A stretch of 42,473 nt of DNA, from contig NZ_KB898684.1 in the NCBI RefSeq assembly GCF_000377765.1, positions 1 through 42,473 on the forward strand, read 5' to 3'. Positions 1 through 14,116 of the stretch are shown here, in pieces. Below the pieces are notes generated by a model. It had not been told where the DNA came from. It made no database searches and worked only from the letters and a program-made list of their open reading frames with translations. This DNA comes from Gracilibacillus lacisalsi DSM 19029 (GTDB lineage: Bacteria > Bacillota > Bacilli > Bacillales > Amphibacillaceae). How positions within the stretch are numbered: position 1 is the stretch's first letter; every line of letters starts with the position of its first letter. The position numbers and the translations under genes are program-made.

Positions 1-294
1 TTTGTCGGGAAGTATCAAGACCGCCCAAGTCCGTCACGATTACGCATTAATAGCGTTGAGGTTTTTGCATTGCAAACAGTCACAGAAGATCAGACACCAT
101 ATATCGCTCAACCTGGAGATATTATAACATTTGACCATACTAACAACGGGCAAGTTTATATAAATGGAGAAGTGTATGAGGATAATATGTTAGGAGTGGA
201 TTACTTCACTCTAAAAAAAGGTGAAAACCAGCTTGTGGTGCTTCCGAGTGATAGTCTCAAGATTAGTGGAAGGTACCGTGAACGATACTCATAA
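1..294 (+). CDS. Phage distal tail protein (Dit family), C-terminal part
   Basis: The reading frame is open from base 1 and ends with TAA at 292-294, so only the last 97 codons are present. The fragment looks like the C-terminal beta-rich domain of siphovirus distal tail proteins: a 'GDIITFDHTNNGQVYINGE' stretch, then a conserved ending in which a short loop precedes 'GRYRERYS'. Dit forms the hub that joins the tail tube to the baseplate. Position directly before a large tail endopeptidase/fibre gene is the usual order in phages of Bacillota. The family call rests on this short fragment plus context. Confidence 0.7.
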   Translation, partial: FVGKYQDRPSPSRLRINSVEVFALQTVTEDQTPYIAQPGDIITFDHTNNGQVYINGEVYEDNMLGVDYFTLKKGENQLVVLPSDSLKISGRYRERYS

Positions 295-325
295 GCCATG
301 TCAAAGCAAGAAATGAGGTGAAAGG

Positions 326-3300: not shown

Positions 3301-3952
3301 ACGCTCGATCTTTACGCAAGAAGCGGATTCATTCACTTTTGATGCAGATCAAATCAACTTTGACGGTCATGTATTCGGTGGGGATGCCACGTTCACTGGT
3401 AAGATTGAAGGGGCTATTATTGAAGGTTCTAGTTTTGTTTCAAGCTATGGTAATAGTGGATATTTAGAAATAGAAAATGGTGCTCTAGCATTTTTTAGTG
3501 GAAACGATTCTCTTGTTTTAGGAGTATATTCCGACGAGGGCTTTGTGATGAATAAGGGAAACAATCATATGCAATTGAGTTCGAGCTCTTTAACATTTAA
3601 CGGGAACCCTGCTGAAGTCATAGAAAGCCAGGGCTCAAATGCAGGTGGTCGTTGGATACGATATGCTAGCGGTATTCAAATATGTTGGGCTCAACCGTTT
3701 AATCAGGCTACAACTAATACGTATTCATCTGGTGTTTCCTATTCGGATACTGACTATTGGGATTTTCCAGTTTCATTTGATGATAGTTACCCAATATCAG
3801 TTAGCGCTGTGTGTGCTTCACTGGGTAGAGTTTGTGGCACAACAGGGCCTCCAAGTGCTAGCAGTGTGCCAATACGGACGTACTCACTTAGTGGAAATAC
3901 TTCATCTACCGCATACAGTGTATACACATATGCAGTTGGTAGATGGAAATAA
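326..3952 (+). CDS. Phage tail endopeptidase / tail fibre (tip) protein
   Basis: A 1208-residue tail-tip protein that probably binds the host surface and opens the wall. Residues 1 to about 360 resemble the prophage endopeptidase tail (minor structural protein) domain. Residues about 390-550, 720-830 and 960-1010 are rich in repeated 'ADLEIMAGQIEAKAE'-type heptads and look like trimeric coiled coil. Residues about 560-715 ('NLLRNSAVQNGTLDNWTGSG', 'ATDWSPAPEDF') look like a carbohydrate-binding jelly roll. Residues about 1105-1208, from 'GGRWIRYASGIQICW', match gp53-like receptor-binding ends of tail fibres. ATG 326 follows GGTGAAAGG. The gene appears intact. Domain calls are from pattern recognition. 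Confidence 0.85.
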   Translation: MSQVFVADGNNYEALSHIRYRNVISNSHKKSLKDGSETFDFTTHADKPYSPYIEGNNRIIIPGEDGDFLEFIIYEIQEDRIERELEVYSYASYAELRTAKVIPEHTTSSLTVGQHAGIALDGTEWRIGIVESDAVRTITFESRTHPYGYLKRLASVFDLELHFRIEHDNGKITGRYVDLLERVGEWRGRRVEFGKDLLGLRRVENTEEIVTALNVIGPEDENGDRLEVVVEDEEAFQRWARNGKHIIKDYEPQFEMDENATEERLIELGEQELAKRVKAIVTYEGTIADLEKVPGLEHKKFRFGDTIQIKDTSYEPALYLDARIFFQDRDIKDQAEKQVRLGDFTEYTQEEVDAIWKSLEQQIKNKISMTDLTEVTYTKPEIEERDKPGNDAADKIETDVGWDEVIETEQGSQEKADQAEENANNHTDQIKEEIDQELLDKADLEYVDGQLQFKADSDLVNTINDTVDDLQLTTDDLLIDVANHADELQAQGGRITTVEYDLDEVEGQLSLAITDLELLENEVSTQGTQISANAEAIGFKADATVVEGLQEEFDALSYENRNLLRNSAVQNGTLDNWTGSGISVIEEGVFSDYAIRFEGSPSGSREFKNTTQIPAGEYIMQIWYKHIVGDTPYLFLNGSNPTDGSVSDDRDLFDPNIEGWQVAKVEFTANSETRMPYIRYASSSPSDHTYGTCIIGAIKIEKGNKATDWSPAPEDFEADISAVGTRVENLSADLEIMAGQIEAKAEKSAVENLEGDFSTLSNEVSSLSVAYDGISADVSSLQSTTDDHTSEISDLNAELEIQAGEISSKVDAIYVENAVSDTGRWTKSYRVRTANPENLTEKDGSALSNLYTYEVTGKVTGTGSNTTAVAIFRSNSTSGSSDSNGWSLEIIYEQGGKSSNQPEFFIDDDGKPSIRLYGHTSYYTVEVTHEKTIGRESSMSVASSEITQLAGEITSKVSTTEFDNLEDRVDTAESTISQHANQIQQKVEENDVRSIFTQEADSFTFDADQINFDGHVFGGDATFTGKIEGAIIEGSSFVSSYGNSGYLEIENGALAFFSGNDSLVLGVYSDEGFVMNKGNNHMQLSSSSLTFNGNPAEVIESQGSNAGGRWIRYASGIQICWAQPFNQATTNTYSSGVSYSDTDYWDFPVSFDDSYPISVSAVCASLGRVCGTTGPPSASSVPIRTYSLSGNTSSTAYSVYTYAVGRWK

Positions 3953-3969
3953 AAACAGGAGGAATTTAC

Positions 3970-4389
3970 ATGCAAGTAAAAATTGAAAACAGAATGCTAA
4001 AACCGTCAATTGAACTACTTCTGGACTTCCCACTGAAAGGGAAGAAGTCACGTCATAGAACCAAGTTTATTAAGCAACTACAGGATCGCTTAAAAGAAGT
4101 CGATCAGAACAGAGCGCAGCTTGCAAAAGAACATGCCAAAAGTGATGAAGATGGAGAACCAATTGTAATTGATGATGGTAAGCGATATGACATCGAAGAT
4201 CAAGAGGCATTCCAAGCAGATTTAAAAGAATTATATGATGAAGCGTTAGTCATTGACGGGGGTGATAATGAAGGGATGCTTAAGACGGTTAAAACGGTAT
4301 TATTAAATTCGGATAAAGAGTGGAGCGGTCAGCAGGCTTTTGTCTATGATTATCTATGCGAACAATTTGAAAAAGGAGATGAAGCATAA
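3970..4389 (+). CDS. Phage protein, DUF1617-like
   Basis: A 139-residue, charged, mostly helical protein beginning 'MQVKIENRMLKPSIELLLDF'. It resembles the DUF1617 family, found just after tail-fibre genes in prophages of Bacillota; its role is not known. The ATG at 3970 is preceded by AGGAGGAATTTAC, which decides the start. An in-frame ATG at 3943 lies inside the end of the tail gene and has no ribosome-binding site. The stop TAA overlaps the next ATG by one base, so the two small genes are probably translationally coupled. Confidence 0.7.
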   Translation: MQVKIENRMLKPSIELLLDFPLKGKKSRHRTKFIKQLQDRLKEVDQNRAQLAKEHAKSDEDGEPIVIDDGKRYDIEDQEAFQADLKELYDEALVIDGGDNEGMLKTVKTVLLNSDKEWSGQQAFVYDYLCEQFEKGDEA

Positions 4390-4601
4390 TGAACTTTGAA
4401 ATCAGATCCGTACAAACTAAATATAATGATGGTGAAGCTACAAGTGTGAGAATATCCTACTCAGCTAAAAATAATGATCGAAGCGTAAGCGTGAGTGGTG
4501 TGTATGACTTAACTGCTGAGGAATTTAACCAAGATGGATCCTTTGATACATTAGAAGCTAAAGCACAAGAGCATTTATTGAATGAAATCAACGCCACGTA
4601 A
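4389..4601 (+). CDS. Small conserved phage protein of unknown function
   Basis: A 70-residue protein coupled to the previous gene through a TAATG overlap, with AAAAAGGAG about 9 bases upstream. It has alternating hydrophobic/polar residues ('SVSVSGVYDLTAEEF') that suggest a small beta sheet followed by a helix. Similar small proteins occur between tail and lysis genes in Bacillus prophages, but I cannot name a family with confidence. A weak hairpin terminator follows directly. Confidence 0.65.
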   Translation: MNFEIRSVQTKYNDGEATSVRISYSAKNNDRSVSVSGVYDLTAEEFNQDGSFDTLEAKAQEHLLNEINAT

Positions 4602-4613
4602 GGCGTATTTTTT
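4591..4613 (+). terminator. Weak rho-independent terminator after small tail genes
   Basis: ACGCC (4591-4595) pairs with GGCGT (4602-4606) over a 6-base loop and is followed by ATTTTTT. The stem is only 5 bp, so it probably lowers rather than stops read-through to the next phage gene. Confidence 0.45.
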
Positions 4614-4667
4614 ATGCAGGAATTTCCTCCTTTATGTCGAATTATGATAAGGAGGAGGTTGTTTAAA

Positions 4668-5102
4668 ATGATAACTATAAAAGAACTTGAAAAAAAGCAT
4701 ATAGTTTTAGAAGAGAAGCTAATCGAAAACAATTCTTTATACGAGCAACAAAAGGATTCACTTTTTAAACTTATGGAGCAGTATCAAGAAATTGCAAGGT
4801 GGTATTTATCTAAAGGATTTACGAATAGCCTTGAATACAGGAGAGAAATAGGAGATGTATTAGTCCTAGCTGAGCATGACCAAGATGTTTACTATTGGGA
4901 TCCGGAAGAGCTAAAAATAAATAAATTTAACCTTAGAGATTATAAAAATATGAATGGCGTCAACTCTTTAATTTTTGTAAAAAAAGGACTATATAATTCG
5001 GCAAGAGATACCATTTTATCACTTGATTCTATGTTAAATCAGCATGTGGAAAGTATTGAAAAAGAAAACCGACAACTAAAAAATGATTTAGGAGAAGATT
5101 AG
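4668..5102 (+). CDS. Hypothetical phage protein with coiled-coil ends
   Basis: A 144-residue protein that I do not recognise. Residues 1-45 and 120-144 ('LEKKHIVLEEKLIENNSLYE', 'ESIEKENRQLKNDLGED') are strongly helical and coiled-coil-like; the middle is rich in Tyr, Trp and Asp and looks globular. The ATG at 4668 has the strong site AAGGAGGAGG about 10 bases upstream, which excludes the in-frame ATG at 4614. The gene sits between two terminators, so it may be a separately expressed accessory gene within the late region. Confidence 0.6.
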   Translation: MITIKELEKKHIVLEEKLIENNSLYEQQKDSLFKLMEQYQEIARWYLSKGFTNSLEYRREIGDVLVLAEHDQDVYYWDPEELKINKFNLRDYKNMNGVNSLIFVKKGLYNSARDTILSLDSMLNQHVESIEKENRQLKNDLGED

Positions 5103-5126
5103 AGACCTTAAAATGGTCTCTTTTTT
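5102..5126 (+). terminator. Rho-independent terminator
   Basis: GAGACC (5102-5107) pairs with GGTCTC (5115-5120), followed by six T. It closes the preceding gene, whose stop codon touches the left arm. Confidence 0.7.
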
Positions 5127-5158
5127 ATACCCAAAAACAGATAGAAGGGGGATTAAGC

Positions 5159-5461
5159 ATGACGATCGAAATAGGCATTTTACTATCTATTGCATCAATT
5201 GTAATAGCTTATCTAGGTTACCAGTTGAACAAACAAAAGCAACAGACACAGTACCAGGAAAACATTAAAAATGATGCAACTAGAGAAGCCGTTATTGAGA
5301 CTAAGCTTGATAACATCGGCAATGGTGTCGAAAACATAAGAATTGATTTGCGAGCCAACGCGAGAGAAATTGGTGCACTTGGTGAACGAGTAACTAGGGT
5401 AGAAGAATCAAGTAAACAAGCACATAAGAGAATTGATGCAATCAGTCCAGATAAGGGCTGA
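5159..5461 (+). CDS. XhlA-like membrane-anchored coiled-coil protein of the lysis cassette
   Basis: A 100-residue protein with one N-terminal membrane segment (residues about 5-22, 'IGILLSIASIVIAYLGYQL') and a charged helical tail with heptads ('NIRIDLRANAREIGALGERV'). This layout is like XhlA-type proteins that work with a holin and endolysin in host lysis. It lies immediately upstream of the holin and amidase. AGAAGGGGG precedes the ATG by about 8 bases. The family name is inferred from topology and position. Confidence 0.6.
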   Translation: MTIEIGILLSIASIVIAYLGYQLNKQKQQTQYQENIKNDATREAVIETKLDNIGNGVENIRIDLRANAREIGALGERVTRVEESSKQAHKRIDAISPDKG

Positions 5462-5492
5462 TTTTTTATTGTATTTGAAGGAGGTGAGTAAG

Positions 5493-5744
5493 TTGAAAGA
5501 ACAATTAAAAAAGATCGACAACAAGTGGGTTAGGTTAATCGCCTTTACTATTGCATCAATCAATACTGGTTTTACGATTGCTGGTAATCCGTTGCTACCT
5601 TTTGGCAGTGAGCAAATTGTAGAAGGTGTTTCGATTGTCGCTAATACTGCAGCTGGTATTTGGGTTTATTGGAAAAACAACAGCTTTACGTTTGCGGCTA
5701 AAGTTGCGGATGATCATTTAAAACAATTGAAGGAGGGAAAATAA
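5493..5744 (+). CDS. Phage holin, SPP1 family
   Basis: An 83-residue holin. It has two hydrophobic segments (about residues 14-30, 'LIAFTIASINTGFTIAG', and 40-58, 'VEGVSIVANTAAGIWVYW') and a charged C-terminal tail, as in SPP1-type holins, which form membrane lesions that release endolysin. The start is TTG at 5493, set by AAGGAGG at 5478-5484; the in-frame GTG at 5484 lies within that site. It sits between the XhlA-like gene and the amidase, one base ahead of the latter, forming a normal lysis cassette. Confidence 0.85.
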   Translation: MKEQLKKIDNKWVRLIAFTIASINTGFTIAGNPLLPFGSEQIVEGVSIVANTAAGIWVYWKNNSFTFAAKVADDHLKQLKEGK

Positions 5745-5745
5745 G

Positions 5746-6855
5746 ATGGCCGGAAATCTATCACACTTACCAAAATTTAAGGATGTGCGTAACAAGTTAA
5801 AAAAGCATCCGTCTAAGAAGTTCCCTGTCCTATCTATGGCAGGGAAAACAACTATTGCCTTACACCACAGTTTAACAAAACAAGGTCTTGGAGGTTCAAA
5901 TGCGGAGGGGTACGCAGAGTTCCATGTAGATACTCACGATTGGCCTGGCATTGGTTATCATTATGTAATTGAACCAAATGGAACAATTAAGTGGTGTAAT
6001 GATCTTGAATTAAGAACGTACCATGTTGGTGACCATAACAATTATTGTGTAGGTATTTGCTTAACCGGTGATTTCAGATATGAAGAACCTACCAAAGAAC
6101 AGGAAGATAGCTTACGTCGTTTAGTGTATGCTCTTAAAAAAGAATATTCTGTCTTAAAGTATGTGAAAGGGCACCATGAATTCAGTGGTTATGAGTGGAA
6201 GCAGTGTCAGGAGTATGACTATAAAAAGATTCTAAATGAAAAAGGATCTATTCCTGGTAAAACTGATTTGCCAAACACTTATAAAATTCAAGAAGGTGAC
6301 ACTTTCTGGTCTATTGCTAAAGGGATGAAAGATTTATCTGTTGATGATCTGAAAAAGGCTAATCCAGGAGTGGATCCTAAGAAATTAAAAATAGGACAAA
6401 AAATCAACCTTGGTAAAGCTAAGAAATCAAGTGGAACCACTAATAAAAAATCAAGTAGTAAAAAAGCTACTGGAGTAGTTGCAGATATCCAAGACACAGT
6501 AAATGATCGATACGGTTATAACATTGCAGTAGACAACATTCCCGGTCCTGAAACGTATAAAGCATTATTGAAGGCTTATCAAACTGAATTAAATAAACAA
6601 TTCGGAGCTGGTCTAAAAGTAGATGGTATATGGGGGCCTAAAACTGCAGCTGCATCTGTAACTGTTCGTAAGGGAGCTAAAGGTAACCTTACTTGGATAC
6701 TTCAAGCTATGCTTTATTGTAAAGATCATAAGATTGCAGTAGATGGAATTTTTGGAAGTGAAACTGAAAAAGCAGTTAAAGCGTTCCAGCGATCTTTTGG
6801 AATTACAGTGGATGGAGTACCTGGACCTGTTACTTTCAGTAAGTTATTTAAGTAG
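5746..6855 (+). CDS. Phage endolysin: N-acetylmuramoyl-L-alanine amidase with LysM and peptidoglycan-binding domains
   Basis: A 369-residue endolysin that cuts the amide bond between MurNAc and L-alanine. Residues about 30-165 form an Amidase_2 domain with likely zinc ligands H40/H41 ('IALHHSLT'), H143/H144 ('GHHEF') and C154. Residues about 178-223 are a LysM domain ('YKIQEGDTFWSIAKG'), then a Ser/Lys linker ('KKSSGTTNKKSSSKK'), and residues about 245-369 hold peptidoglycan-binding repeats ending 'AVKAFQRSFGITVDGVPGP'. AGGAGGG lies about 8 bases before the ATG. No signal peptide is seen, in keeping with holin-dependent release. A strong terminator follows. Confidence 0.92.
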   Translation: MAGNLSHLPKFKDVRNKLKKHPSKKFPVLSMAGKTTIALHHSLTKQGLGGSNAEGYAEFHVDTHDWPGIGYHYVIEPNGTIKWCNDLELRTYHVGDHNNYCVGICLTGDFRYEEPTKEQEDSLRRLVYALKKEYSVLKYVKGHHEFSGYEWKQCQEYDYKKILNEKGSIPGKTDLPNTYKIQEGDTFWSIAKGMKDLSVDDLKKANPGVDPKKLKIGQKINLGKAKKSSGTTNKKSSSKKATGVVADIQDTVNDRYGYNIAVDNIPGPETYKALLKAYQTELNKQFGAGLKVDGIWGPKTAAASVTVRKGAKGNLTWILQAMLYCKDHKIAVDGIFGSETEKAVKAFQRSFGITVDGVPGPVTFSKLFK

Positions 6856-6869
6856 AGTATTGAAAAGGA

Positions 6870-6896
6870 GGGCGTTTTTTCTGAACGCCCTTTTTT
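6870..6896 (+). terminator. Strong terminator closing the phage late operon
   Basis: GGGCGTT (6870-6876) pairs with AACGCCC (6884-6890), followed by six T. It lies 15 bases after the endolysin stop and separates late genes from the accessory block. Confidence 0.85.
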
Positions 6897-6947
6897 GTGG
6901 ATAAGTTTAATGAATCCTTTGTTTAATTAAATTATAGTTGTGGATAA
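6896..6947 (+). promoter_or_regulatory. Two consensus DnaA boxes
   Basis: TGTGGATAA occurs at 6896-6904 and again at 6939-6947, same strand, 43 bases apart start to start. It is the exact reverse complement of the consensus DnaA box TTATCCACA. The second copy overlaps the -35 element of the promoter of the following gene. Binding is not shown; two perfect matches this close are unlikely in ordinary sequence. Confidence 0.5.
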
Positions 6948-6966
6948 CTGTCTCCTGTGATAGAAT
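6938..6966 (+). promoter_or_regulatory. Sigma-A-like promoter of the DUF3800 gene pair
   Basis: TTGTGG (6938-6943), a 17-base spacer, then TAGAAT (6961-6966). It lies about 40 bases before the ATG at 7006 and after the late-operon terminator, so the gene pair probably has its own transcript, possibly active in the lysogen. Confidence 0.5.
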
Positions 6967-7005
6967 AATAGAAAATTGCTTTGTATTAATTTAGAGGATG
7001 GTTTT

Positions 7006-7722
7006 ATGATATATGTATATTGTGATGAGAGCTGTCATCTAGAGAATGATTTATCTAACGTGATGGTTCTTGGTGGATTAGCTGTTCCTGAAAGCAAAAA
7101 GAAAGAAATATTTAATGATATAAGAAGAATTAAAGAACAACATAATTTAAGCTCTTGGTTTGAAATAAAGTGGACTAAAGTTTCCAATTCAAAAATAGAT
7201 TTTTATCTTGATTTAATTAAATATTTTTTTAATAATGATTTTTTAAGATTCAGAGGAATTGTTATGAGAGGTAAAAAAAATCTTGATCATAAGACTTTTG
7301 GTAATACTCATGACGATTGGTATTATAGAATGTATTTTTATCTCCTAGACCCAATGATATTTCCTGAAGAAAATTATAGAGTCTTCTTAGATATTAAGGA
7401 TACTAATGGAGGTAAGAAAGTAAGGAAGCTTCATGAGGTTCTATGCAATAGTAATTATGATTTTAATCAAGATGTGCTTAAAGATATAACACAGATTCAT
7501 TCTCATGAATCAGAGATAATGCAGCTTTGTGATTTATTAATTGGAGCGTTATCATACTTTAATCGTGGACTATACTTTAATGGTAACCAAGGGAAACAGA
7601 AGGTTATAAGCCAAATAATTAGTATTTCTCAAAAAAATTTAAATAGGAGTACATCTTTACAAGAAAACAAATTTAACTTATTTATATGGGATCCACAAGG
7701 AGTTAGTAATAATGTATGGTAA
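7006..7722 (+). CDS. DUF3800 family protein (RNase H-like fold)
   Basis: A 238-residue protein that opens with 'YVYCDES' (D7, E8, S9), the hallmark of DUF3800 proteins, followed by a 'MVLGGLAVPE' strand. It has a later acidic 'LDIKDTNGG' strand and a C-terminal 'MQLCDLLIGAL' helix with a conserved Asp. This arrangement of acidic residues is compatible with a retroviral-integrase/RNase H fold nuclease; the biochemical role of the family is not settled. ATG 7006 has AGAGG upstream and is preferred over the ATG at 6976. Its end overlaps the next gene by 11 bases. Its low GC and own promoter suggest an accessory ('moron') gene. Confidence 0.75.
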   Translation: MIYVYCDESCHLENDLSNVMVLGGLAVPESKKKEIFNDIRRIKEQHNLSSWFEIKWTKVSNSKIDFYLDLIKYFFNNDFLRFRGIVMRGKKNLDHKTFGNTHDDWYYRMYFYLLDPMIFPEENYRVFLDIKDTNGGKKVRKLHEVLCNSNYDFNQDVLKDITQIHSHESEIMQLCDLLIGALSYFNRGLYFNGNQGKQKVISQIISISQKNLNRSTSLQENKFNLFIWDPQGVSNNVW

Positions 7723-8353
7723 ATTATCAAGTCCGAGGCTGATTACTGGTAATACATTGATGGAAGTAGTAACAAATATAGAGAGCAATTTCTATAATGT
7801 GTTTATGAATAAAAGTGCTCGCAGTAATTATAACAATAAGTTCATCTTTTTTAACATTAATAAGGAGTATAAAGGAGAAAAACTTAGATTCCCTGAAAGG
7901 TTTCTACATATATGCTCTATAGAAGATAAAAATCACTACACTATATTTCCTTGTAATAATGACGCAACATATTATCAATGTAATGCAAAATGTGATATTA
8001 CTAGGTCCCATTTAGAATTTAGAAAGTTAGGAAGATCTCAATGTTTATATCGGATGACCAGAATTCATTGGATTCCTGAAATAATAAATCTAGCGAACAA
8101 AAATGATGAAGGAATTACTGTGTGGACTAAACCAGAAAAGGATAGAAACAGAAATGACGTATTTAAACACTATATAAGATATGAATCTCAATTAGTTGAT
8201 TATGTTGTTATTCTAAAAGAAGATATTCGGGGCGGTTCAGTTTATAAATACGAATTCATAAGTGCTTTTCCTGTCTTCACCAAAAGAAACAAGGAGCAAT
8301 TTGAAAAAGATTTCAACCACTATTCACCTTCATTTGCACAAAACAAAAATTAA
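7712..8353 (+). CDS. Unknown prophage accessory protein, possibly BECR-fold RNase
   Basis: A 213-residue protein overlapping the DUF3800 gene by 11 bases, so the two are probably co-translated. I do not firmly recognise it. The C-terminal half (residues about 110-200) has the order 'RIHWIPEII', 'ITVWTKPEK', 'HYIRYES', 'DYVVILKE' and 'YEFISAFPVF'. That resembles phage-borne Barnase-EndoU-ColicinE5/D-RelE (PBECR-type) domains, where Arg/His and a terminal aromatic/Ser-Ala strand form the active site. The Cys-containing middle ('IFPCNNDATYYQCNAKC') could bind metal. The nuclease assignment is inference only. Confidence 0.6.
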   Translation: MYGKLSSPRLITGNTLMEVVTNIESNFYNVFMNKSARSNYNNKFIFFNINKEYKGEKLRFPERFLHICSIEDKNHYTIFPCNNDATYYQCNAKCDITRSHLEFRKLGRSQCLYRMTRIHWIPEIINLANKNDEGITVWTKPEKDRNRNDVFKHYIRYESQLVDYVVILKEDIRGGSVYKYEFISAFPVFTKRNKEQFEKDFNHYSPSFAQNKN

Positions 8354-8384
8354 AAAAGCTGGTTATCGCATTGCGAAATCCAGC
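8354..8384 (-). terminator. Minus-strand terminator hairpin, possible small-RNA 3' end
   Basis: On the minus strand, GCTGG (from 8380) and CCAGC (to 8354) close an imperfect 13-bp stem whose inner part is TTTCGCA/TGCGATA, followed by a T run (TTTTTTAATTTTT). No annotated gene ends here: the nearest minus-strand gene ends at 8549 with its own hairpin. A perfect TTGACA lies upstream on the minus strand (8443-8448). Confidence 0.4.
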
Positions 8385-8477
8385 GGTCTCCTTCTACAAC
8401 TTGGTAGATGAGCTACTTATAAGTTAGCATTGTTTTAATAACATGTCAATGCTGATTCGTTAATAATATACCCAAAA

Positions 8478-8526
8478 ATGTATTTAATAAACACGGCATT
8501 TGATGTCGTGTTTATTAAATACATTC
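8478..8526. terminator. 19-bp perfect palindrome between converging genes
   Basis: The left arm at 8478-8496 and the right arm at 8508-8526 are perfectly complementary over 19 bp. The 11-base loop can extend the stem by four pairs, one of them G-U. On the minus strand it is followed by five T, so it probably ends the 125-residue gene transcribed from 8926. Its length and AT-richness are unusual for a simple terminator. The stretch 8354-8548 holds no gene. Confidence 0.6.
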
Positions 8527-8548
8527 TTATATTAATTCAGGCGTTTGA

Positions 8549-8926
8549 TTAGTGAATTATTTTTGTCTTATTTACCGACTCAAACAACTCCTCAAGAATA
8601 AGCAATACCTTCTTCCTTATCGCCGGATTAAAATAATTCCGTTTTTCCTCTTTCCGTTTAGAATAGAAAGTATACTCCGTAAACATGTCATCTTTACCTG
8701 TCTGTAATACCTTTAGATTTTTCATATGCATTTGTTGCTTCAACTCACGTCTTTCCTCAATAGCTTTTTTCTCAATAGATTCCAGGAGACGTATATAAGG
8801 CTCGTTAATTTTAAAGATGCTATTGTTACGTAATGTATCTAAATCCTTCTGGATCACTTCAATAGCCATGGACAAGAACAAATAACGGCTTGCTACTTTG
8901 AATTCCTCATCTGTTATATATCGCAT
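8549..8926 (-). CDS. Hypothetical protein co-transcribed with the YolD-like gene
   Basis: A 125-residue, highly charged, mainly helical protein ('IRLLESIEKKAIEERRELKQ'). I do not recognise a family. Its start overlaps the end of the YolD-like gene by 13 bases, which indicates one operon and coupled translation. In many Bacillus elements a Y-family DNA polymerase gene (UvrX-like) follows yolD; this product has none of its motifs and is far too short. By position it may act with the YolD-like protein. Confidence 0.6.
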   Translation of the reverse strand: MRYITDEEFKVASRYLFLSMAIEVIQKDLDTLRNNSIFKINEPYIRLLESIEKKAIEERRELKQQMHMKNLKVLQTGKDDMFTEYTFYSKRKEEKRNYFNPAIRKKVLLILEELFESVNKTKIIH

Positions 8927-9237
8927 AATGACAACTCCACAACATTGTTAATGTCTAATAAATCAATGCCGTCTACAGTATCGATAGTGAGATTTGTTCC
9001 TTTGATTTTTTCGATAAAACCTTCAATAGTATGAAGCCTATGATTGTTCCAGTAGACTATATCTAATTTCTTTTTAAATTGCATAGCTTCATTTATGGTG
9101 ATCTGCATTTCATGATACTGATCTTCAGATAAAATTGGCTTATCAATCTTTTGTTCTTCTTCAAAAATTTCATGCAGCATCTCCAGATGTTCAGGCATCA
9201 TCATTGCAGTCCATTTCTTATTTCCCCGATCGATCAT
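8914..9237 (-). CDS. YolD-like family protein (SOS-associated)
   Basis: A 107-residue protein with the YolD pattern: 'MIDRGNKKWTAMMMPEHLEML' at the start, a central helical region, then a Sm-like 'GFIEKIKGTNLTI' sheet near the end. YolD-like proteins usually accompany UvrX-type Y-family polymerases in Bacillus phages and integrative elements and are SOS-induced. The ATG at 9237 is chosen because GAGGTGAT lies 6-8 bases upstream; a longer in-frame version from 9300 would run through the promoter. A LexA-like box and a -10 TATAAT lie just upstream. No polymerase gene is adjacent, which is unusual. Confidence 0.75.
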   Translation of the reverse strand: MIDRGNKKWTAMMMPEHLEMLHEIFEEEQKIDKPILSEDQYHEMQITINEAMQFKKKLDIVYWNNHRLHTIEGFIEKIKGTNLTIDTVDGIDLLDINNVVELSLCDI

Positions 9238-9255
9238 AAATATCACCTCACAACA

Positions 9256-9269
9256 GGAACGTTTGTTCT
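9256..9269 (-). promoter_or_regulatory. LexA (SOS) box in front of the YolD-like gene
   Basis: On the minus strand the site reads AGAACAAACGTTCC. It matches the B. subtilis LexA consensus CGAACRNRYGTTYG at 12 of 14 positions, including the whole GAAC-N4-GTTC core. It sits just downstream of the -10 TATAAT, where LexA binding would block transcription. Confidence 0.65.
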
Positions 9270-9270
9270 T

Positions 9271-9300
9271 ATTATATATCCAAATATTGAATTTATGCAA
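9271..9300 (-). promoter_or_regulatory. Sigma-A promoter of the YolD-like operon
   Basis: On the minus strand, TTGCAT (9300-9295), an 18-base spacer and TATAAT (9276-9271). The LexA-like box begins two bases downstream of the -10. Confidence 0.6.
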
Positions 9301-9321
9301 ATTGTATTTTCTGGAAGGAAT

Positions 9322-9350
9322 TTAACAGTTAGTGTCGAAAGTAATAGTAT
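9322..9350 (+). promoter_or_regulatory. Sigma-A promoter of the divergent small gene
   Basis: TTAACA (9322-9327), a 17-base spacer and TAGTAT (9345-9350), about 28 bases before the ATG at 9378. It is divergent from the YolD promoter. Confidence 0.5.
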
Positions 9351-9377
9351 ATATGTCAGTTGGAGAGGAGGGGTAGT

Positions 9378-9626
9378 ATGGAAGAATATCATATAATGCC
9401 TTCGATTAGATTTAATATACAAACAACTAGACATTATGATAATGGACAGCTAGCTATTTTGGTTTATGATAAAGAGATAGAACAACATTTTCTGTATTAT
9501 GAGAATGAAGTGAAGAGTATACCAAGTGAGCTGAATGAATTAAAGAGATGCATCGATCATGAATGGTTTAACATAAAAAATGGATACTATCGAGTAAAAG
9601 AATTTAGCTATGATTCGGCTATATAA
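9378..9626 (+). CDS. Small hypothetical prophage protein
   Basis: An 82-residue protein of unknown function. It is rich in Tyr, His and Glu, with probable beta strands ('AILVYDKEIEQHFLYYENEV') followed by a helix ('SIPSELNELKRCIDHEWF'). ATG 9378 has the strong site GAGGAGGGG 5-8 bases upstream and a promoter at 9322-9350. It is a single-gene unit with its own terminator, divergent from the SOS-controlled YolD-like gene. Confidence 0.6.
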   Translation: MEEYHIMPSIRFNIQTTRHYDNGQLAILVYDKEIEQHFLYYENEVKSIPSELNELKRCIDHEWFNIKNGYYRVKEFSYDSAI

Positions 9627-9631
9627 TTTGT

Positions 9632-9666
9632 TAGCACCTACTTATGGGGTAGGTGCTATTTTTTTT
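9632..9666 (+). terminator. Terminator of the 82-residue gene
   Basis: TAGCACCTAC (9632-9641) pairs with GTAGGTGCTA (9649-9658), followed by a T8 run. The 9-bp core AGCACCTAC is the same as in the terminator at 12,921-12,949. The converging XRE gene ends inside the right arm. Confidence 0.85.
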
Positions 9667-9877
9667 GGGGAAAGAAATCACTAACTTTTTTATTAAAAAT
9701 GTTAGCAAATTTATACAACATATAACTATCTAAATTATATAAGCCTTGTTCATAATCGGATATTGTATTATGTTTTACTCCAAGCTTTTCACCTAATTCT
9801 TTTTGAGTTATTTTCCTTTTTATTCTGAATTCTCTTATTTTTATTCCTACGTGTTTTCTTAATTCATGTTCGTCCAT
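9656..9877 (-). CDS. XRE-family transcriptional regulator (phage repressor-like)
   Basis: A 73-residue single-domain helix-turn-helix protein. Residues about 11-62 form the HTH_3 fold, with 'ITQKELGEKLGVKHNTISDY' spanning the recognition helices. It is as short as small phage or plasmid regulators. The ATG at 9877 places the usual short lead before the domain and has a weak AGGA upstream; an in-frame ATG at 9910 would extend it by 11 residues and overlap the upstream regulator gene. It is probably co-transcribed with the gene starting at 10,094. The targets are unknown. Confidence 0.8.
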   Translation of the reverse strand: MDEHELRKHVGIKIREFRIKRKITQKELGEKLGVKHNTISDYEQGLYNLDSYMLYKFANIFNKKVSDFFPQKK

Positions 9878-9890
9878 TTTAAACATCATC

Positions 9891-10094
9891 CTAACAACTG
9901 TTTCTTTCATATAAGTCGTCTACTTTGCAATCCAATAAATCTGCTAATTTAAAAGCATTTTCTAAAGATGGTTTACTATGTCCGTTTATCCATCTTGATA
10001 GTACTGTTTGACTAACCCTCATTCGATTAGCTACCTCTTTTTTAGACAGTCCTTTTTTTGCAATACATACATTTATATTACTTTTTAATGTCAT
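9891..10094 (-). CDS. XRE/Cro-family transcriptional regulator
   Basis: A 67-residue Cro/CI-type helix-turn-helix protein. The HTH covers residues about 8-60 ('LSKKEVANRMRVSQTVLSRW', then 'KPSLENAFKLADLLDCKVDD'). The ATG at 10,094 has AGGG 8 bases upstream; GTG 10,103 and ATG 10,100 are too close to that site. It lies ahead of the second XRE gene on the minus strand and is divergent from the ftsK-like gene. By position the pair could control the FtsK/replication module or the lysogeny switch. Confidence 0.78.
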   Translation of the reverse strand: MTLKSNINVCIAKKGLSKKEVANRMRVSQTVLSRWINGHSKPSLENAFKLADLLDCKVDDLYERNSC

Positions 10095-10401
10095 CTTCAT
10101 CACCCTATTTATACATATTCTTCAAAGCAATAAGAAAATCCTTCATCATATTCGTTAAAAAAATTGTATTTTTAGTTCAACAAACAAGCCCACCATGCAT
10201 ATCATTTATCAAAAGCTTATCACTCAAAAGCTTCAGCAAAATTCGCTTTCGCTTTTTCGTTCATATGAACAAGAAATTATTGCATGTCTATAGTACTTTA
10301 ATAGTTGTTATGGCAACATCGGAATATTCCAAACATAATTCCAGTGCGGAATAGTAAAAGGAAGAGCGAACGGAATACCAAATGGAAGGGAGGAGAGAAT
10401 A
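10095..10401. promoter_or_regulatory. Divergent control region with GGAAT/ATTCC motifs
   Basis: No convincing gene is seen here. It contains a 12-bp palindrome GTTCATATGAAC (10,259-10,270), a direct repeat TCAAAAGCTT (10,209 and 10,224), and five GGAAT/ATTCC motifs in 56 bases. The five are GGAATATTCC (10,321-10,330), ATTCC-AGTGC-GGAAT (10,338-10,352) and GGAAT (10,372-10,376). These could be operators for the XRE proteins or sites for the replication module downstream. An open frame at 10,058-10,354 has low-complexity composition and no ribosome-binding site. Confidence 0.4.
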
Positions 10402-11541
10402 GTGTTATTAGAAGCAGGGTTATGCATAGGTGGATATGTATTCTTGCACATGCTCTTTAGAGAAAAGTCAGAAAAAGAGAAGATCAACCTGGTATTTAAA
10501 AATATAGGATATGGATTTAAAGAGCAGCTACCATATCATATTAGGACCATAAAAGCGGATCGATATACAATGTATATTTATCATTTGCCGTATGGTCTTA
10601 TTGACGATCCGAAACTAGAAACTATACTGCAGAAAACATTGAATAAGTCAGTGGAGATCGTCATGAAAAACAAATTGTATATTACCGTGTACCAGGAAGA
10701 TCTGAAAAGTAAATATAACTATGCATTTACGAAAATTGATGGTTGGCAATTGCCTATTGGTTATGCTGTTGGTGCCAAAGTTATTTATCACGATTTTGAC
10801 AAGATACCGCATGCAACTGTGGCAGGGATGACAAGGCAAGGAAAAACGGTACTGCTAAAATTAATCCTGGCACATCTTATTTACAATCATCCTGAAGATG
10901 TGGAGTTTTACGTTATTGATCTTAAAGGAGGCTTAGAGTTTTCACGATACCAAAAATTAAAGCAAGTCAAACAGGTAGCAAGTAATGTGGACGATGCTTA
11001 TCAATTACTGCAGCAAATAAATAAAAAAATAAAATCGGATATGCAGCACTTTAAAAACAAAGGTTATTCAAATGTATTAGATACGAATATAAATAAACGC
11101 ACTTTTATTATTACTGATGAAGCAGCGGAACTTACACCAGCTGCACATCATGATAGAGAAACTAAAAATAAATTTAGATATTGTCAGCAAGTTTTATCTG
11201 AAATTTGTAGAGTAGCTGGAGCACTTGGGTACCGTAATATTTTTTGCACACAATACCCAACTGCAGATACATTACCACGTCAAATCAAACAGAACAGTGA
11301 TGTAAAGATTAGCTTCCGATTACCAACAGAAGTAGCAAGTCGTGTTGCTATTGATGAAAAGGGAGCAGAGGAATTAAATGTACCAGGTAGGGCCATCTAT
11401 AGAACACATGAGAAGCAAATAATTCAGGTACCGTTTATAAGTGACAAAACGATATTGGATGAATTAAGGAGGTATGAGGTCAATGATTCAACAAATAGAA
11501 AAACAGAAGAGAGAGGAGCGGATTTTATTACGTTTGGATGA
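10402..11541 (+). CDS. FtsK/SpoIIIE-domain ATPase of the prophage
   Basis: A 379-residue DNA-pumping ATPase. An N-terminal hydrophobic stretch (residues about 1-18) suggests a membrane anchor. Walker A is G142-T149 ('GMTRQGKT') and Walker B is 'FIITDE' near residues 235-240. The fold then follows FtsK/SpoIIIE proteins ('GYRNIFCTQYPTADTLPRQI', 'RVAIDEKGAEELNVPGRAIY'). Start GTG 10,402 follows GGGAGGAGAG. It overlaps the next gene. Such pairs of FtsK-like ATPase and replication-relaxation protein occur in Bacillus prophages and small mobile elements, often beside the lysis genes. Role inferred: DNA segregation, transfer or replication of the excised phage. Confidence 0.85.
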   Translation: MLLEAGLCIGGYVFLHMLFREKSEKEKINLVFKNIGYGFKEQLPYHIRTIKADRYTMYIYHLPYGLIDDPKLETILQKTLNKSVEIVMKNKLYITVYQEDLKSKYNYAFTKIDGWQLPIGYAVGAKVIYHDFDKIPHATVAGMTRQGKTVLLKLILAHLIYNHPEDVEFYVIDLKGGLEFSRYQKLKQVKQVASNVDDAYQLLQQINKKIKSDMQHFKNKGYSNVLDTNINKRTFIITDEAAELTPAAHHDRETKNKFRYCQQVLSEICRVAGALGYRNIFCTQYPTADTLPRQIKQNSDVKISFRLPTEVASRVAIDEKGAEELNVPGRAIYRTHEKQIIQVPFISDKTILDELRRYEVNDSTNRKTEERGADFITFG

Positions 11542-12070
11542 TCTTAATTTTGCAACCAGAGAACAGTTGCAGGTCATTGAAAGTTTAGGGGGTGATCGAA
11601 ACGCTAGAAGAATATTACACCAAATGGAAAAGGATAAATTACTCTTGTCTGTACGATATGAAAAGAAGATCTACTATCTAAGTAATCGAGGGAAAGAACG
11701 CGTGGGATCCAATCAAAGCAAGTTAAAACGTGACAAGATTCAGCACACATTAATGCGTAATGATATGTACATCAAGCTAGGTATGCCTAATGACTGGAAG
11801 AAGGAAGTACCAATAAACTTTGGTACCGAAACACTGATACCAGATGCAATGTTTAAACTGAATGGGATATATCACTTTGTTGAAATCGACAACGTGCAAA
11901 CAATGAAAACTAACTATGAAAAGATTAAGAAGTATAAAGAACTATCCAACATGATTGCTAAGCAATATAAGCATGTTCCTACATTAATATGGTACTCATT
12001 ATCTGAAACACGTAAGCGGAAGTTAGAAGATGCATGTGTAAAAAGTAATTTAAAATATCAAATTTATTAG
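11483..12070 (+). CDS. Replication-relaxation family protein
   Basis: A 195-residue protein of the Replic_Relax family. The N-terminal winged-helix part ('LNFATREQLQVIESLGGDRN', 'ARRILHQMEKDKLLL', 'IYYLSNRGKERVG') precedes a C-terminal nuclease-like domain ('LIPDAMFKLNGIYHFVEID', then 'MKTNYEKIKKYKEL') whose Asp, Glu and Lys resemble restriction-endonuclease folds. The family is found with FtsK-like genes on mobile elements. ATG 11,483 has AAGGAGG 10 bases upstream; the ATG at 11,474 directly abuts that site. The first 59 bases overlap the ftsK-like gene in another frame. Confidence 0.8.
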   Translation: MIQQIEKQKREERILLRLDDLNFATREQLQVIESLGGDRNARRILHQMEKDKLLLSVRYEKKIYYLSNRGKERVGSNQSKLKRDKIQHTLMRNDMYIKLGMPNDWKKEVPINFGTETLIPDAMFKLNGIYHFVEIDNVQTMKTNYEKIKKYKELSNMIAKQYKHVPTLIWYSLSETRKRKLEDACVKSNLKYQIY

Positions 12071-12081
12071 GAGGGATTAAA

Positions 12082-12249
12082 ATGTTTAAGAACGCTGAAA
12101 AGATAAGCAAGGCCATGGATATGTTAATAAAGGTTACGGAAGAATTAGAGAACCAGGAGCGGAAGGATGAAATGGTTAATGTGATTCATGATCTTTCCAA
12201 GGTACATCAAAACGTGCTTGGTGATTTGACTAGAAAGACAGTCGATTAA
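12082..12249 (+). CDS. Small hypothetical protein after the replication-relaxation gene
   Basis: A 55-codon ORF (ATG 12,082, TAA 12,247-12,249) with a strong TAGGAGGG site 8 bases upstream, 11 bases after the replication-relaxation gene. The product is a charged, helical peptide ('KISKAMDMLIKVTEELENQE'). It resembles no family I know. Operon position and the ribosome-binding site support it being real. A small accessory subunit or regulator of the preceding pair is possible. Confidence 0.6.
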   Translation: MFKNAEKISKAMDMLIKVTEELENQERKDEMVNVIHDLSKVHQNVLGDLTRKTVD

Positions 12250-12260
12250 TGGCTGTCTTT
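12234..12260 (+). terminator. Hairpin overlapping the stop of the 55-codon ORF
   Basis: AAAGACAG (12,234-12,241) pairs with CTGTCTTT (12,253-12,260) over an 11-base loop that contains the stop codon. The T tract is short, so termination may be partial. Confidence 0.45.
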
Positions 12261-12315
12261 ACATAGGTAAAAAGTAATTGTATTATTATGGTATAGAGAG
12301 AGGAGAGATTGGAAT

Positions 12316-12936
12316 ATGTGGGAAGTTATGGAGTTATTGGGAATCGTATGTTTCATAATAGGTATAATACTATTAATCGTTATGTTAGTGATAAAACAAT
12401 CACCTATTATTCCTGTCATTGTTATTTGTTCTAGTGTATTGATTTGGTTTATTGGATGGGGAAATCAGCCTGTTGTCGATCCAGACGAACCAGTTACAGC
12501 TAATAACGTAAAGGAAGACGAAGAGGAAGCTTTAACAGAAGAAGATAGCGAGGTTACACAAGAGGAATTAGATGAACAATTAAAAGACGAAGCAGTTGAA
12601 GCTGATTTTGTGGAATTGAATAGTGGTGAAGCAGAATCAGATCAACGTGTGTTTATTGAAGGCAAAGTATTGGATGAACCAGAAGAAAAACTACAAGAAT
12701 TTATGGTGTCCACATATGAGGGAGACGGTTACGGCATATATATAGTCAAAGATTTTGATCCAGGAGCTGAATTCAAAGAAGGAGATATTATAAGAGCGTA
12801 TGGCATTTATAATGGCAAACATGAAGAATTAGGAGGGCCTTTGATCACAGCTACACTTATCGAAAATGTAGACTTTGATGAAAATAATGAAGCCCATGTG
12901 AAGTTAGTGGAAGATGAAGAAGCACCTACCGAATAA
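12316..12936 (+). CDS. Prophage membrane protein with acidic linker and OB-like domain
   Basis: A 206-residue protein. Two membrane segments lie at residues about 8-28 ('GIVCFIIGIILLIVMLVI') and 32-50 ('IPVIVICSSVLIWFIGW'). A very acidic linker follows at about 60-105. The soluble domain at about 110-200 has a 'VFIEGKVLDEPEEKLQEFMV', 'GYGIYIVKDF', 'EGDIIRAYGIYNG' pattern like an OB-fold (tRNA_anti-like) barrel. GAGGAGAG precedes the ATG by about 10 bases. It is the last gene of the prophage, transcribed toward the attachment junction, a usual place for lysogenic-conversion genes. I infer no specific function. Confidence 0.7.
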   Translation: MWEVMELLGIVCFIIGIILLIVMLVIKQSPIIPVIVICSSVLIWFIGWGNQPVVDPDEPVTANNVKEDEEEALTEEDSEVTQEELDEQLKDEAVEADFVELNSGEAESDQRVFIEGKVLDEPEEKLQEFMVSTYEGDGYGIYIVKDFDPGAEFKEGDIIRAYGIYNGKHEELGGPLITATLIENVDFDENNEAHVKLVEDEEAPTE

Positions 12937-13338
12937 GTAGGTGCTTTTTGTGTCTTTAAAAACAATAGGATCTCCTTTCGCTTGGATATATGTTGCTGTC
13001 CATGGTGACCCAGCTGCATTTTGATAATATAATGCATGGTCATGGTTAACAAAGTGTTCACCTAATCCTGCAGCCACTAATTGCTCTGTAGTAGCGTCCT
13101 TTGTTAATTTATAGATCATAGTAGCTATCATTTCCAGATGTGCAAACTCTTCTGTACCAATATCATTTAATAAGCCAACAACTTTGTCTGGTATGGTATA
13201 ACGTTGATTTAAGTAGCGTAAAGCAGCTGACAATTCTCCGTCGGCTCCTCCATATTGTTCAATTAAATATTTGGCTAACGTCGGATTGCACCTACTTACC
13301 TTAACCGGATATTGCAATTTTTTTTCGTAATACCACAT
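12904..13338 (-). CDS. cotJC: CotJC spore coat protein, 5' part, interrupted by prophage
   Basis: CotJC is a manganese-catalase-like inner spore-coat protein made in the mother cell, normally about 189 residues. Residues 1-125 here match closely ('MWYYEKKLQYPVKVSRCNPT', 'QYGGADGELSAALRYLNQRY', 'DIGTEEFAHLEMIATMIYKL', including the E/H metal-ligand helices). After I125 the frame enters phage DNA and stops 19 codons later, so about 64 residues are lost. cotJB and cotJA upstream are intact. The remaining 3' part is expected beyond the phage's left end. Excision would restore the gene; permanent inactivation is the alternative. Confidence 0.85.
   Translation of the reverse strand: MWYYEKKLQYPVKVSRCNPTLAKYLIEQYGGADGELSAALRYLNQRYTIPDKVVGLLNDIGTEEFAHLEMIATMIYKLTKDATTEQLVAAGLGEHFVNHDHALYYQNAAGSPWTATYIQAKGDPIVFKDTKSTYLFGRCFFIFH
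12921..12949 (+). terminator. Terminator of the last prophage gene
   Basis: AGCACCTAC (12,921-12,929) pairs with GTAGGTGCT (12,937-12,945), followed by four T. It overlaps the end of the membrane-protein gene and stands about 15 bases from the cotJC junction, insulating cotJC from phage transcription. Confidence 0.75.
12960..12980. mobile_element. Prophage right junction (attachment site) inside cotJC
   Basis: Reading cotJC on the minus strand, family-like codons continue through '...QAKGDPI' (I125 at 12,964-12,966). The next codons ('VFKDTKSTYLF...') no longer resemble CotJC and come from phage DNA. The crossover is therefore at or near 12,964-12,976, around AATAGGATCTCC. The exact core cannot be set without the left junction, which is outside the window. 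Everything to the left of this point in the window looks phage-derived. Confidence 0.75.
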
Positions 13339-13356: not shown

Positions 13357-13626
13357 TTACACTTGCCAAGGCCATGGTGCTTCTTTCCAATTCCATGGAT
13401 AACTGGAATAACTGTGACCATATTGCATGAGAGGGCCGAATCGTTCTTCAAACTGGTTTTTTAACTGTTTACTTTCGTAAGCAGCTTGATTAAATTGTTT
13501 AATGGCATCTAAATCTTGGGGGTGGGTATCAAGATATAATGTTAGCTCTACTAAGACAAAATCTACAGCTTGAATTTGTTCCATTAACTGATAATAACTT
13601 TCTGGTAGTGACTTTTCCTTTGTCAT
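13357..13626 (-). CDS. cotJB: Spore coat protein CotJB
   Basis: An 89-residue CotJB with the typical helical N-terminal part ('YYQLMEQIQAVDFVLVELTL', 'YLDTHPQDLDAIKQF') and an aromatic Pro/Trp-rich end ('YPWNWKEAPWPWQV'). CotJB is required with CotJA and CotJC for assembly of the CotJ coat components. The start overlaps the end of cotJA by 4 bases (ATGA), and cotJC begins 18 bases after its stop, so the three form one operon. Confidence 0.92.
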   Translation of the reverse strand: MTKEKSLPESYYQLMEQIQAVDFVLVELTLYLDTHPQDLDAIKQFNQAAYESKQLKNQFEERFGPLMQYGHSYSSYPWNWKEAPWPWQV

Positions 13627-13847
13627 TCGTTTGATTCACTCCTTTTCGAGTAGTAGGGATCGTACAAACATGGCCATAACGTTCCTGCAAAAAGTGCTTC
13701 TCTAGCAGTGTGGAATTGTTCTGTATTGTTTGGCTGAAAACCTATATATAAATTAGGCGGTGTAGAATAGCACTTGGTTAAGACAGGCTTACATGGATCA
13801 AATTTGCTCACGAACGGGGAGTAACATTTAGTTAGTGTAAAAGACAT
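13623..13847 (-). CDS. cotJA: Spore coat associated protein CotJA
   Basis: A 74-residue CotJA, Cys- and Pro-rich ('KFDPCKPVLTKCYSTPPNLY'), with the family's 'REALFAGTLWPCLYDPY' near the end. It is the first gene of the cotJABC operon. AAAGGAG lies 7 bases before the ATG. CotJA is a mother-cell protein of the inner coat. A sigma-E -10-like CATACAAT lies upstream at 13,955-13,948. Confidence 0.92.
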   Translation of the reverse strand: MSFTLTKCYSPFVSKFDPCKPVLTKCYSTPPNLYIGFQPNNTEQFHTAREALFAGTLWPCLYDPYYSKRSESNE

Positions 13848-13947: not shown

Positions 13948-13955
13948 ATTGTATG
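13948..13955 (-). promoter_or_regulatory. cotJA: Possible sigma-E -10 element for cotJABC
   Basis: CATACAAT on the minus strand fits the sigma-E -10 consensus CATACANT exactly, about 100 bases upstream of cotJA. The matching -35 region is poor, so this is a candidate only. It agrees with the known sigma-E control of cotJ in B. subtilis. Confidence 0.3.
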
Positions 13956-13966
13956 GAGGTTGCATC

Positions 13967-14116
13967 ATGTCCTATTACAATTCTGTCTTAACCCATTTGA
14001 AAATTAATCATTTGGAAACAGTCTATAAATTTATCAGTGTAATCAATCAAACGATCAAACAAGTTTGCTATGTTTCTGAAAATAAACATGTTAATATATA
14101 TATGGTTCGTTATTAA
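13967..14116 (+). CDS. Possible 49-codon ORF divergent from cotJ
   Basis: ATG 13,967 has GGAGG (13,956-13,960) 6 bases upstream, and the frame ends at TAA 14,114-14,116. The peptide ('YYNSVLTHLKINHLETVYKF', then 'VSENKHVNIYMVRY') has no hydrophobic run and no recognised family. It lies between the divergent cotJ operon and ypdA. The good ribosome-binding site argues for it; short length and lack of a known family argue against. Confidence 0.4.
   Translation: MSYYNSVLTHLKINHLETVYKFISVINQTIKQVCYVSENKHVNIYMVRY

Follow-up and report, generated by a model that had tools for sequence, protein, structure and literature searches.

A prophage interrupts the spore-coat gene cotJC of Gracilibacillus lacisalsi DSM 19029 (G000) within its coding frame and carries, next to the cut-off 3′ half of the gene, a large serine integrase of its own; the insertion in cotJC and the identity of the integrase are settled. 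As the best explanation of the data as a whole, to which we assign a probability of roughly 0.6, we propose that this is a phage residing in cotJC whose excision in the mother cell restores the gene, and mother-cell excision of this particular prophage is likely. The window, that is, the whole stretch of DNA analysed here (42,473 nucleotides), is the complete contig C23 of the G. lacisalsi genome; its left edge therefore marks where the contig stops, not where the prophage does. The features on which the argument rests, in window coordinates or, where so marked, on contig C28 of the same genome, are as follows.

1..12963, plus strand: right-hand (late) part of the prophage, the left part being C28:1-4437, off the window
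326..3952, plus strand: phage tail endopeptidase-like protein (Prophage_tail, 1e-21)
5746..6855, plus strand: phage lysin, an amidase with LysM and peptidoglycan-binding domains
10402..11541, plus strand: FtsK/SpoIIIE-type ATPase in the right arm of the prophage (9e-18)
11474..12070, plus strand: Replication-relaxation family protein (6.1e-15)
12316..12936, plus strand: last phage gene before the core, with no Pfam family at E 0.001
12920..12949, no strand: hairpin terminator of the last phage gene, read directly, its T-run ending at 12949
12964..13338, minus strand: cotJC 5′ part, codons 1-125 (Pfam Mn_catalase, 2.5e-50); the fused frame continues to 12904
12968..12978, minus strand: attachment core AAAGGAGATCC (cotJC strand, codons 121-124), also present at the start of the 3′ part on C28
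13357..13626, minus strand: cotJB (Pfam CotJB, 4.2e-29)
13623..13847, minus strand: cotJA (Pfam CotJA, 5.6e-9)
13948..13977, minus strand: promoter-like site of the cotJ operon, TAATAGGACAT N11 CATACAAT; many relatives have similar sites before cotJA
C28:1403-1564, minus strand: 53-residue candidate excision protein, 1.4 kb from the integrase
C28:2989-4419: large serine integrase of 476 residues with Resolvase, Recombinase and zinc-ribbon domains

An earlier note on this DNA, made from the letters of the window, had claimed that a prophage splits cotJC downstream of intact cotJA and cotJB genes, and the follow-up confirmed this reading, with the 5′ half of cotJC in the window, the 3′ half on contig C28 and both upstream genes intact by Pfam. 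As the note had described, CotJC codons 1-125 are followed by 19 phage-derived codons, together forming a 144-codon frame (12904-13338, minus strand). The Pfam Mn_catalase match to the 5′ part breaks off at position 141 of the 284-position profile, and 14 bases separate the end of the phage terminator's T-run from codon 125. The note had further expected the rest of the gene behind a matching core to the left of the contig, together with a large serine recombinase; the rest of the gene, the core and the recombinase beside it were all found, but on the separate contig C28. A search of the genome that used the C-terminal region of CotJC from a genus-mate located codons 119-189 at C28:4432-4644, where the 3′ part proper comprises codons 121-189 and starts 18 bases past the integrase stop codon. 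The 11-base core AAAGGAGATCC is common to both ends as a direct repeat and lies in phase, the longest off-phase run being 6 bases; joining the halves at this core gives an uninterrupted 189-codon CotJC, both halves being in one phase. A LysM-type gene follows cotJC on C28 and occupies the same place in 13 of 14 genus-mates, indicating that C23 and C28 flank one native locus.

CotJC of 189 codons is intact in all 14 genus-mates with a CotJC match (16 sampled). A second intact cotJC, which the earlier note had named as evidence against its reading, did not turn up in G. lacisalsi: a search of the genome for further CotJC returned only Mn-catalase-like proteins with 39-46% identity to CotJC, encoded by frames of 278 and 292 codons. 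Alignment with solved Mn-catalases showed that the break separates conserved residues: Glu35 and Glu64-His67 are in the 5′ half, Glu135/136 and His168 in the 3′ half. These residues are probably the metal ligands, and the truncated CotJC would then lack function.

Tail, lysis and right-arm genes of the prophage lie in the window. Its early genes are on C28:1-4437, together with those for the integrase, a repressor-like and an IrrE-like protein. Genes recognised by eye as head and packaging genes occur on contigs C32, C34 and C36, all three with the same module, and may belong to this prophage or to a related one. The window has a 92% match over 2 kb on contig C30, and C28 has one of 97.8% over 773 bases on C27. 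Six contigs of this genome (C27, C30, C32, C34, C36 and C37) belong to related prophages that share the same head and packaging module and differ at their ends, one of which encodes a tyrosine-type integrase as read by eye. Contigs break here because related prophages share modules in one genome. No near match to the window prophage DNA was found among phage records. A single-sequence scan with the integrase returned one relative, at 27% identity, among genome contigs and none among viral contigs, and against phage records none exceeded 31.7% among the 30 listed of 947, with all below 60%.

The conclusion that cotJC is recurrently interrupted is well supported by surveys of the order and the class. 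In the order, 334 of 397 genomes had a match; 272 of these reached the CotJC level (1e-50 or better; hand count) and 62 had only weaker, Mn-catalase-level matches (hand count; G048 holds a degenerate fragment). The gene was split in 11 of the 272, G. lacisalsi included. The class survey yielded matches in 233 of 398 genomes, about 229 of them at CotJC level, and 15 further split genes came from 19 class genomes that were followed up. Split genomes were selected by intermediate E-values, and 19 single-match class genomes at 1e-73 to 1e-88 were counted as divergent intact copies by assumption. Two candidates, G437 and G456, proved to be full-length, and G464 was not counted as split. The 26 sampled genomes with a split gene comprise 21 with the break near codon 76, three at codon 121 (G000, G192 and G685) and two near codon 62 (G495 and G715); of the 19 sampled genomes of family f63 that reach the CotJC level, 12 have a split gene (hand count).

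A large serine recombinase was present in every one of the 26 elements (domains checked for five). The codon-121 prophages outside the Gracilibacillus family occur in two other families and encode integrases 74% and 48% identical to that of G. lacisalsi; in the recombinase tree the three codon-121 integrases form one clade (support 1.0), and the codon-76 recombinases fall into at least two separate groups. In 25 of the 26 genomes the halves could be joined in phase to 188-191 codons through a shared run of at least 4 bases, a test limited by the fact that an in-phase join of two open halves gives an open frame by construction. The exception is G685, where the tblastn frames of the halves agree despite the absence of a shared run of 4 bases. 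In 11 of the 26 the in-phase run exceeded every off-phase run around it; in the others the core is too short to be distinguished from chance, and this weakness of the cores in many relatives counts against our explanation. The GA/TC centre of the core had seemed to be linked to the orientation of the element, an argument that was dropped as circular, the core being part of cotJC. Where the element lies on a single contig (21 cases), its span ranges from 2632 bases (G555) to 55033 bases (G525); the smallest, at 2.6 kb, retains the recombinase and the frame.

The surveys gave several side observations. Four IMG/VR loci, L110 (UViG_3300002855_000062, 10001-10156), L173, L174 and L175, contain cotJC pieces that begin or end at codons 62-67, like the breaks in G495 and G715. 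In three others (L176, L177 and L178) the match to a CotJC-like frame was limited to codons 1-31 or 1-33, perhaps pointing to a fourth insertion site near codon 31. An extra cotJC fragment in G651 (C23:264905-265081; codons 108-166, 83% identical, one stop) lies 6 kb from the intact copy and may be the scar of an old insertion.

The codon-76 elements provided a candidate for the gene that triggers excision. All 11 elements of one recombinase lineage have a gene of 48-59 residues (29 in G133) at the far end from the recombinase. Across the set the tblastn E-values span 1e-28 to 0.76: G555, G769 and G218 have clearly similar genes, and the weakly similar genes of the other elements were identified partly by position and motif. 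A promoter matrix trained on 19 host cotJA promoters only gave shuffle P values of 0.01 or lower for 7 of 10 small-gene upstream regions. Scanning of whole elements placed a site scoring at least 9 before the small gene in G555, G769, G218, G364, G168, G207 and G128; counting G300 (site of 9.5 by upstream-region scoring), a cotJ-type promoter precedes the small gene in 8 of 11 elements. Across the 33 stretches scanned, the matrix at score 9 returned 22 sites where 18.8 were expected, no clear excess, so that the evidence is the position of the top sites before the small gene. The GGACAA box in front of this gene resembles the SpoIIID box consensus. The recombinase promoters of the codon-76 elements look vegetative by eye, and scans upstream of the recombinases with sigma-E and sigma-K consensus sequences returned nothing convincing, only a few sites with one to three mismatches, as did shuffles.

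Relatives of the window phage were collected by searching IMG/VR with an alignment of the three codon-121 integrases and examining the best 80 of 414 matches; of the integrase searches, this alignment alone recovered the family. Among these best 80, 22 loci (L179-L200) matched the integrase over at least 466 residues at 40% identity or more. The integrase runs directly into a cotJC half in 4 of the 22, into the 5′ half in L182, L186 and L200 and into the 3′ half in L185; most of the other loci do not extend beyond the core. L180 equals the G192 contig in length, is 100% identical to it and is probably the same contig; L172 and L186 are one contig. In L188 and L193 the integrase is followed by the core and no cotJC half, and the core of L188 has an inverted repeat (by eye) around it, as in the attP of a free or circular phage.

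Sixteen of these 22 loci from the best 80 matches encode a relative of the 53-residue protein at a distance of about 1.1-1.3 kb from the integrase, and G192 and, weakly, G685 also carry one, so that it occurs in all three codon-121 genomes, with sizes of 52-60 residues. It was not found in the other six loci (L188, with 36 bases on that side, L192, L195, L196, L198 and L199). Among 299 genomes of the order only G. lacisalsi and G192 gave a match to it, and a search of the phage collection gave no match at E 0.01. An extra copy, 64% identical, is located at L171 7553-7678, which is C19:53552-53677 of the G. lacisalsi genome, among genes that appear host-like by eye; a copy among host genes counts against our explanation.

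Upstream of the 53-residue gene, 17 distinct regions were compared, leaving out L180, L172 and L183 (a near-duplicate of L182). Sixteen of them contain GTCC-N14-MATA or GGAC-N11-MATA (CATA in 14, AATA in 2), a pattern that had been found by eye and was counted on the same regions, and that 0.7% of shuffles also show. The CATA occupies the place of a putative −10 element, as described for sprB of SPbeta. To our knowledge, the upstream half of the box (GTCC/GGAC) matches no known sporulation consensus or −35 element, which makes a phage operator a fair rival, and the box lies in the early region, adjoining a Cro/C1-type gene, where an operator would be expected. The host cotJ matrix found no site scoring 15.6 or more on the codon-121 prophages; at 9 or more it gave three, one of them in the window part and the other two in G685, and none precedes a small gene. 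No sigma-E- or sigma-K-like site was detected upstream of the G. lacisalsi integrase. From these sequences, we propose that the 52-60-residue gene may encode the excision factor of the window phage family.

Comparison of split copies yielded a sign of selection on the interrupted gene. In G515 and G698, two genomes of one genus, the elements can be aligned at about 93% along almost the whole length of the shorter element. Between the two genomes the cut-off 3′ half of cotJC shows 20 synonymous and 0 nonsynonymous differences, and the 5′ half has 5 differing sites and an identical protein. The start-less half has thus been kept as protein-coding sequence while interrupted, which is a prediction of restoration by excision. 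In a second pair, the two species G128 and G300 (L071; L081/L082), the elements are 99.8% identical and the cotJC genes only 75-79%; near-identical elements in diverged genes indicate that such elements also move, here recently.

These observations can be arranged into a model whose observed basis is the two halves, the in-phase core, the integrase gene and the phage genes. A temperate tailed phage would integrate into cotJC by means of its own large serine integrase, which would recognise the stretch encoding Lys-Gly-Asp-Pro (codons 121-124). During growth, cotJC would stay cut, with motifs like metal ligands on both halves, and would yield no working CotJC. In the mother cell, the 53-residue phage protein, made from a promoter with CATA as its −10 element, would reverse the direction of the integrase; the prophage would then exit, and the restored cotJC would serve in making the coat; the prophage itself would be retained in the spore. 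The last three steps are drawn from relatives as well as from SPbeta and skin. Excision during sporulation gains indirect support from the repeated targeting of cotJC, from selection on split copies in relatives and from the candidate excision gene with its −10-like CATA. In G192, the integrase contig C45 stops exactly at the end of the core, with a 31-base overlap with the contig of the cotJC 3′ half. Such an end is the branch expected if integrated and circular forms coexist in the DNA; with the other junction unbroken, it is no more than suggestive.

It is possible, though in our view rather unlikely, that an ordinary temperate phage has simply used a dispensable coat gene: it would exit only on induction, its lysogens would lack CotJC and the CATA box would be an operator or early promoter. 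The tail and lysis genes, the repressor-like gene next to the integrase, and the small gene of the window prophage, which lacks a cotJ-type promoter, agree with such a phage, as does the mild effect of CotJC loss in Bacillus subtilis, where no apparent defect is described in the extract of PMC12122855. Against it stand the spans of 16 of the 19 one-contig codon-76 elements, which at less than 16 kb are small for a tailed phage, the selection on the split gene in one pair (G515/G698), and the box upstream of the 53-residue gene, which recurs in 16 of 17 regions although the phages have diverged.

We consider it improbable that the insertion is locked or decaying and cotJC a pseudogene in G. lacisalsi. 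The assembly holds no circular form and C23 and C28 run unbroken through both junctions, as such an insertion would predict; yet the integrase and both gene halves are open and highly similar to relatives, and the 3′ part of cotJC differs from that of the nearest genus-mate with dN 0.000 and dS 0.289. The insertion may be young, and because it may be recent the intact frames there say little. That an assembly artefact joined the phage to cotJC, as contig breaks at modules shared by related prophages might suggest, is already contradicted and extremely improbable, given two separate junctions with one core and native neighbours that recur in other genomes and in IMG/VR contigs.

Excision of the prophage from cotJC in the mother cell, the reading that we prefer, has precedents among the interrupted sporulation genes on record, which in the extracts of the papers drawn on here are sigK, spsM, spoVFB, spoVR, gerE and yabG. 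Known elements of this class include skin, SPbeta, vfbin, vrin, gin and yin. The earlier note had tentatively named cotJC as a target in a Geobacillus; this was not confirmed, the extract of PMC4191935 naming spoVR for Geobacillus thermoglucosidasius. Among the titles and abstract openings of the open literature, we recognised no paper on an interrupted cotJC, and an earlier mention elsewhere is possible.

SPbeta of B. subtilis is an active prophage in a mother-cell gene with a large serine recombinase and a small accessory gene, and the G. lacisalsi prophage with its integrase and candidate excision gene resembles it; SPbeta differs in its target, spsM, and in that precise excision and restoration of the gene are proven for SPbeta and proposed here. 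According to the extract of PMC4191935, sprA is made during growth and sprB from a mother-cell promoter whose sigma-E/K-type −10 closely precedes the gene and whose −35 is imperfect. The codon-76 elements match this pattern of a vegetative sprA and a mother-cell sprB, and likewise that of skin in Clostridioides difficile. The skin recombinase is described as not specific to sporulation, with the small RDF CD1234 under sigma-E and SpoIIID (extract of PMC5025042). The codon-76 small gene with its GGACAA box and CATA parallels CD1234 in layout, whereas the target of skin is sigK.

Other known elements share single traits, again as given in extracts of the sources. The gin element of Bacillus cereus parallels the small codon-76 elements in being non-phage, with serine recombinases and a sporulation gene as target, but that gene is gerE and gin has three recombinases in 28.6 kb (PMC5595907). 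The yin element of Clostridium botulinum is prophage-like, lies in a late mother-cell gene and has a predicted RDF with a putative SigK-type promoter, but its target is yabG, and its paper calls it unique (PMC10747680). The nearest published case found for cotJC is the temperate phage phi027 of C. difficile, which adjoins a cotJC homologue, lying upstream of the CotJC-like gene and not inside it (PMC11222575, PMC12122855).

Taken more broadly, the chances seem to us about even that cotJC is a major landing site in Bacilli, entered by independent recombinase lineages at at least three positions, with carriers ranging from a full phage to 2.6 kb, and that in at least one lineage the excision factors are expressed from a host cotJ-type promoter, so that the element would exit just when the gene is needed. 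If true, a frequent target would be added to the spore genes that are rebuilt by DNA excision. With a phage and a minimal cassette as extremes in one gene, the transition from phage to developmental switch would be open to study. The serine integrases of this family, for which an attachment site is mapped and an excision factor proposed, may also be useful for tests and as a genome tool.
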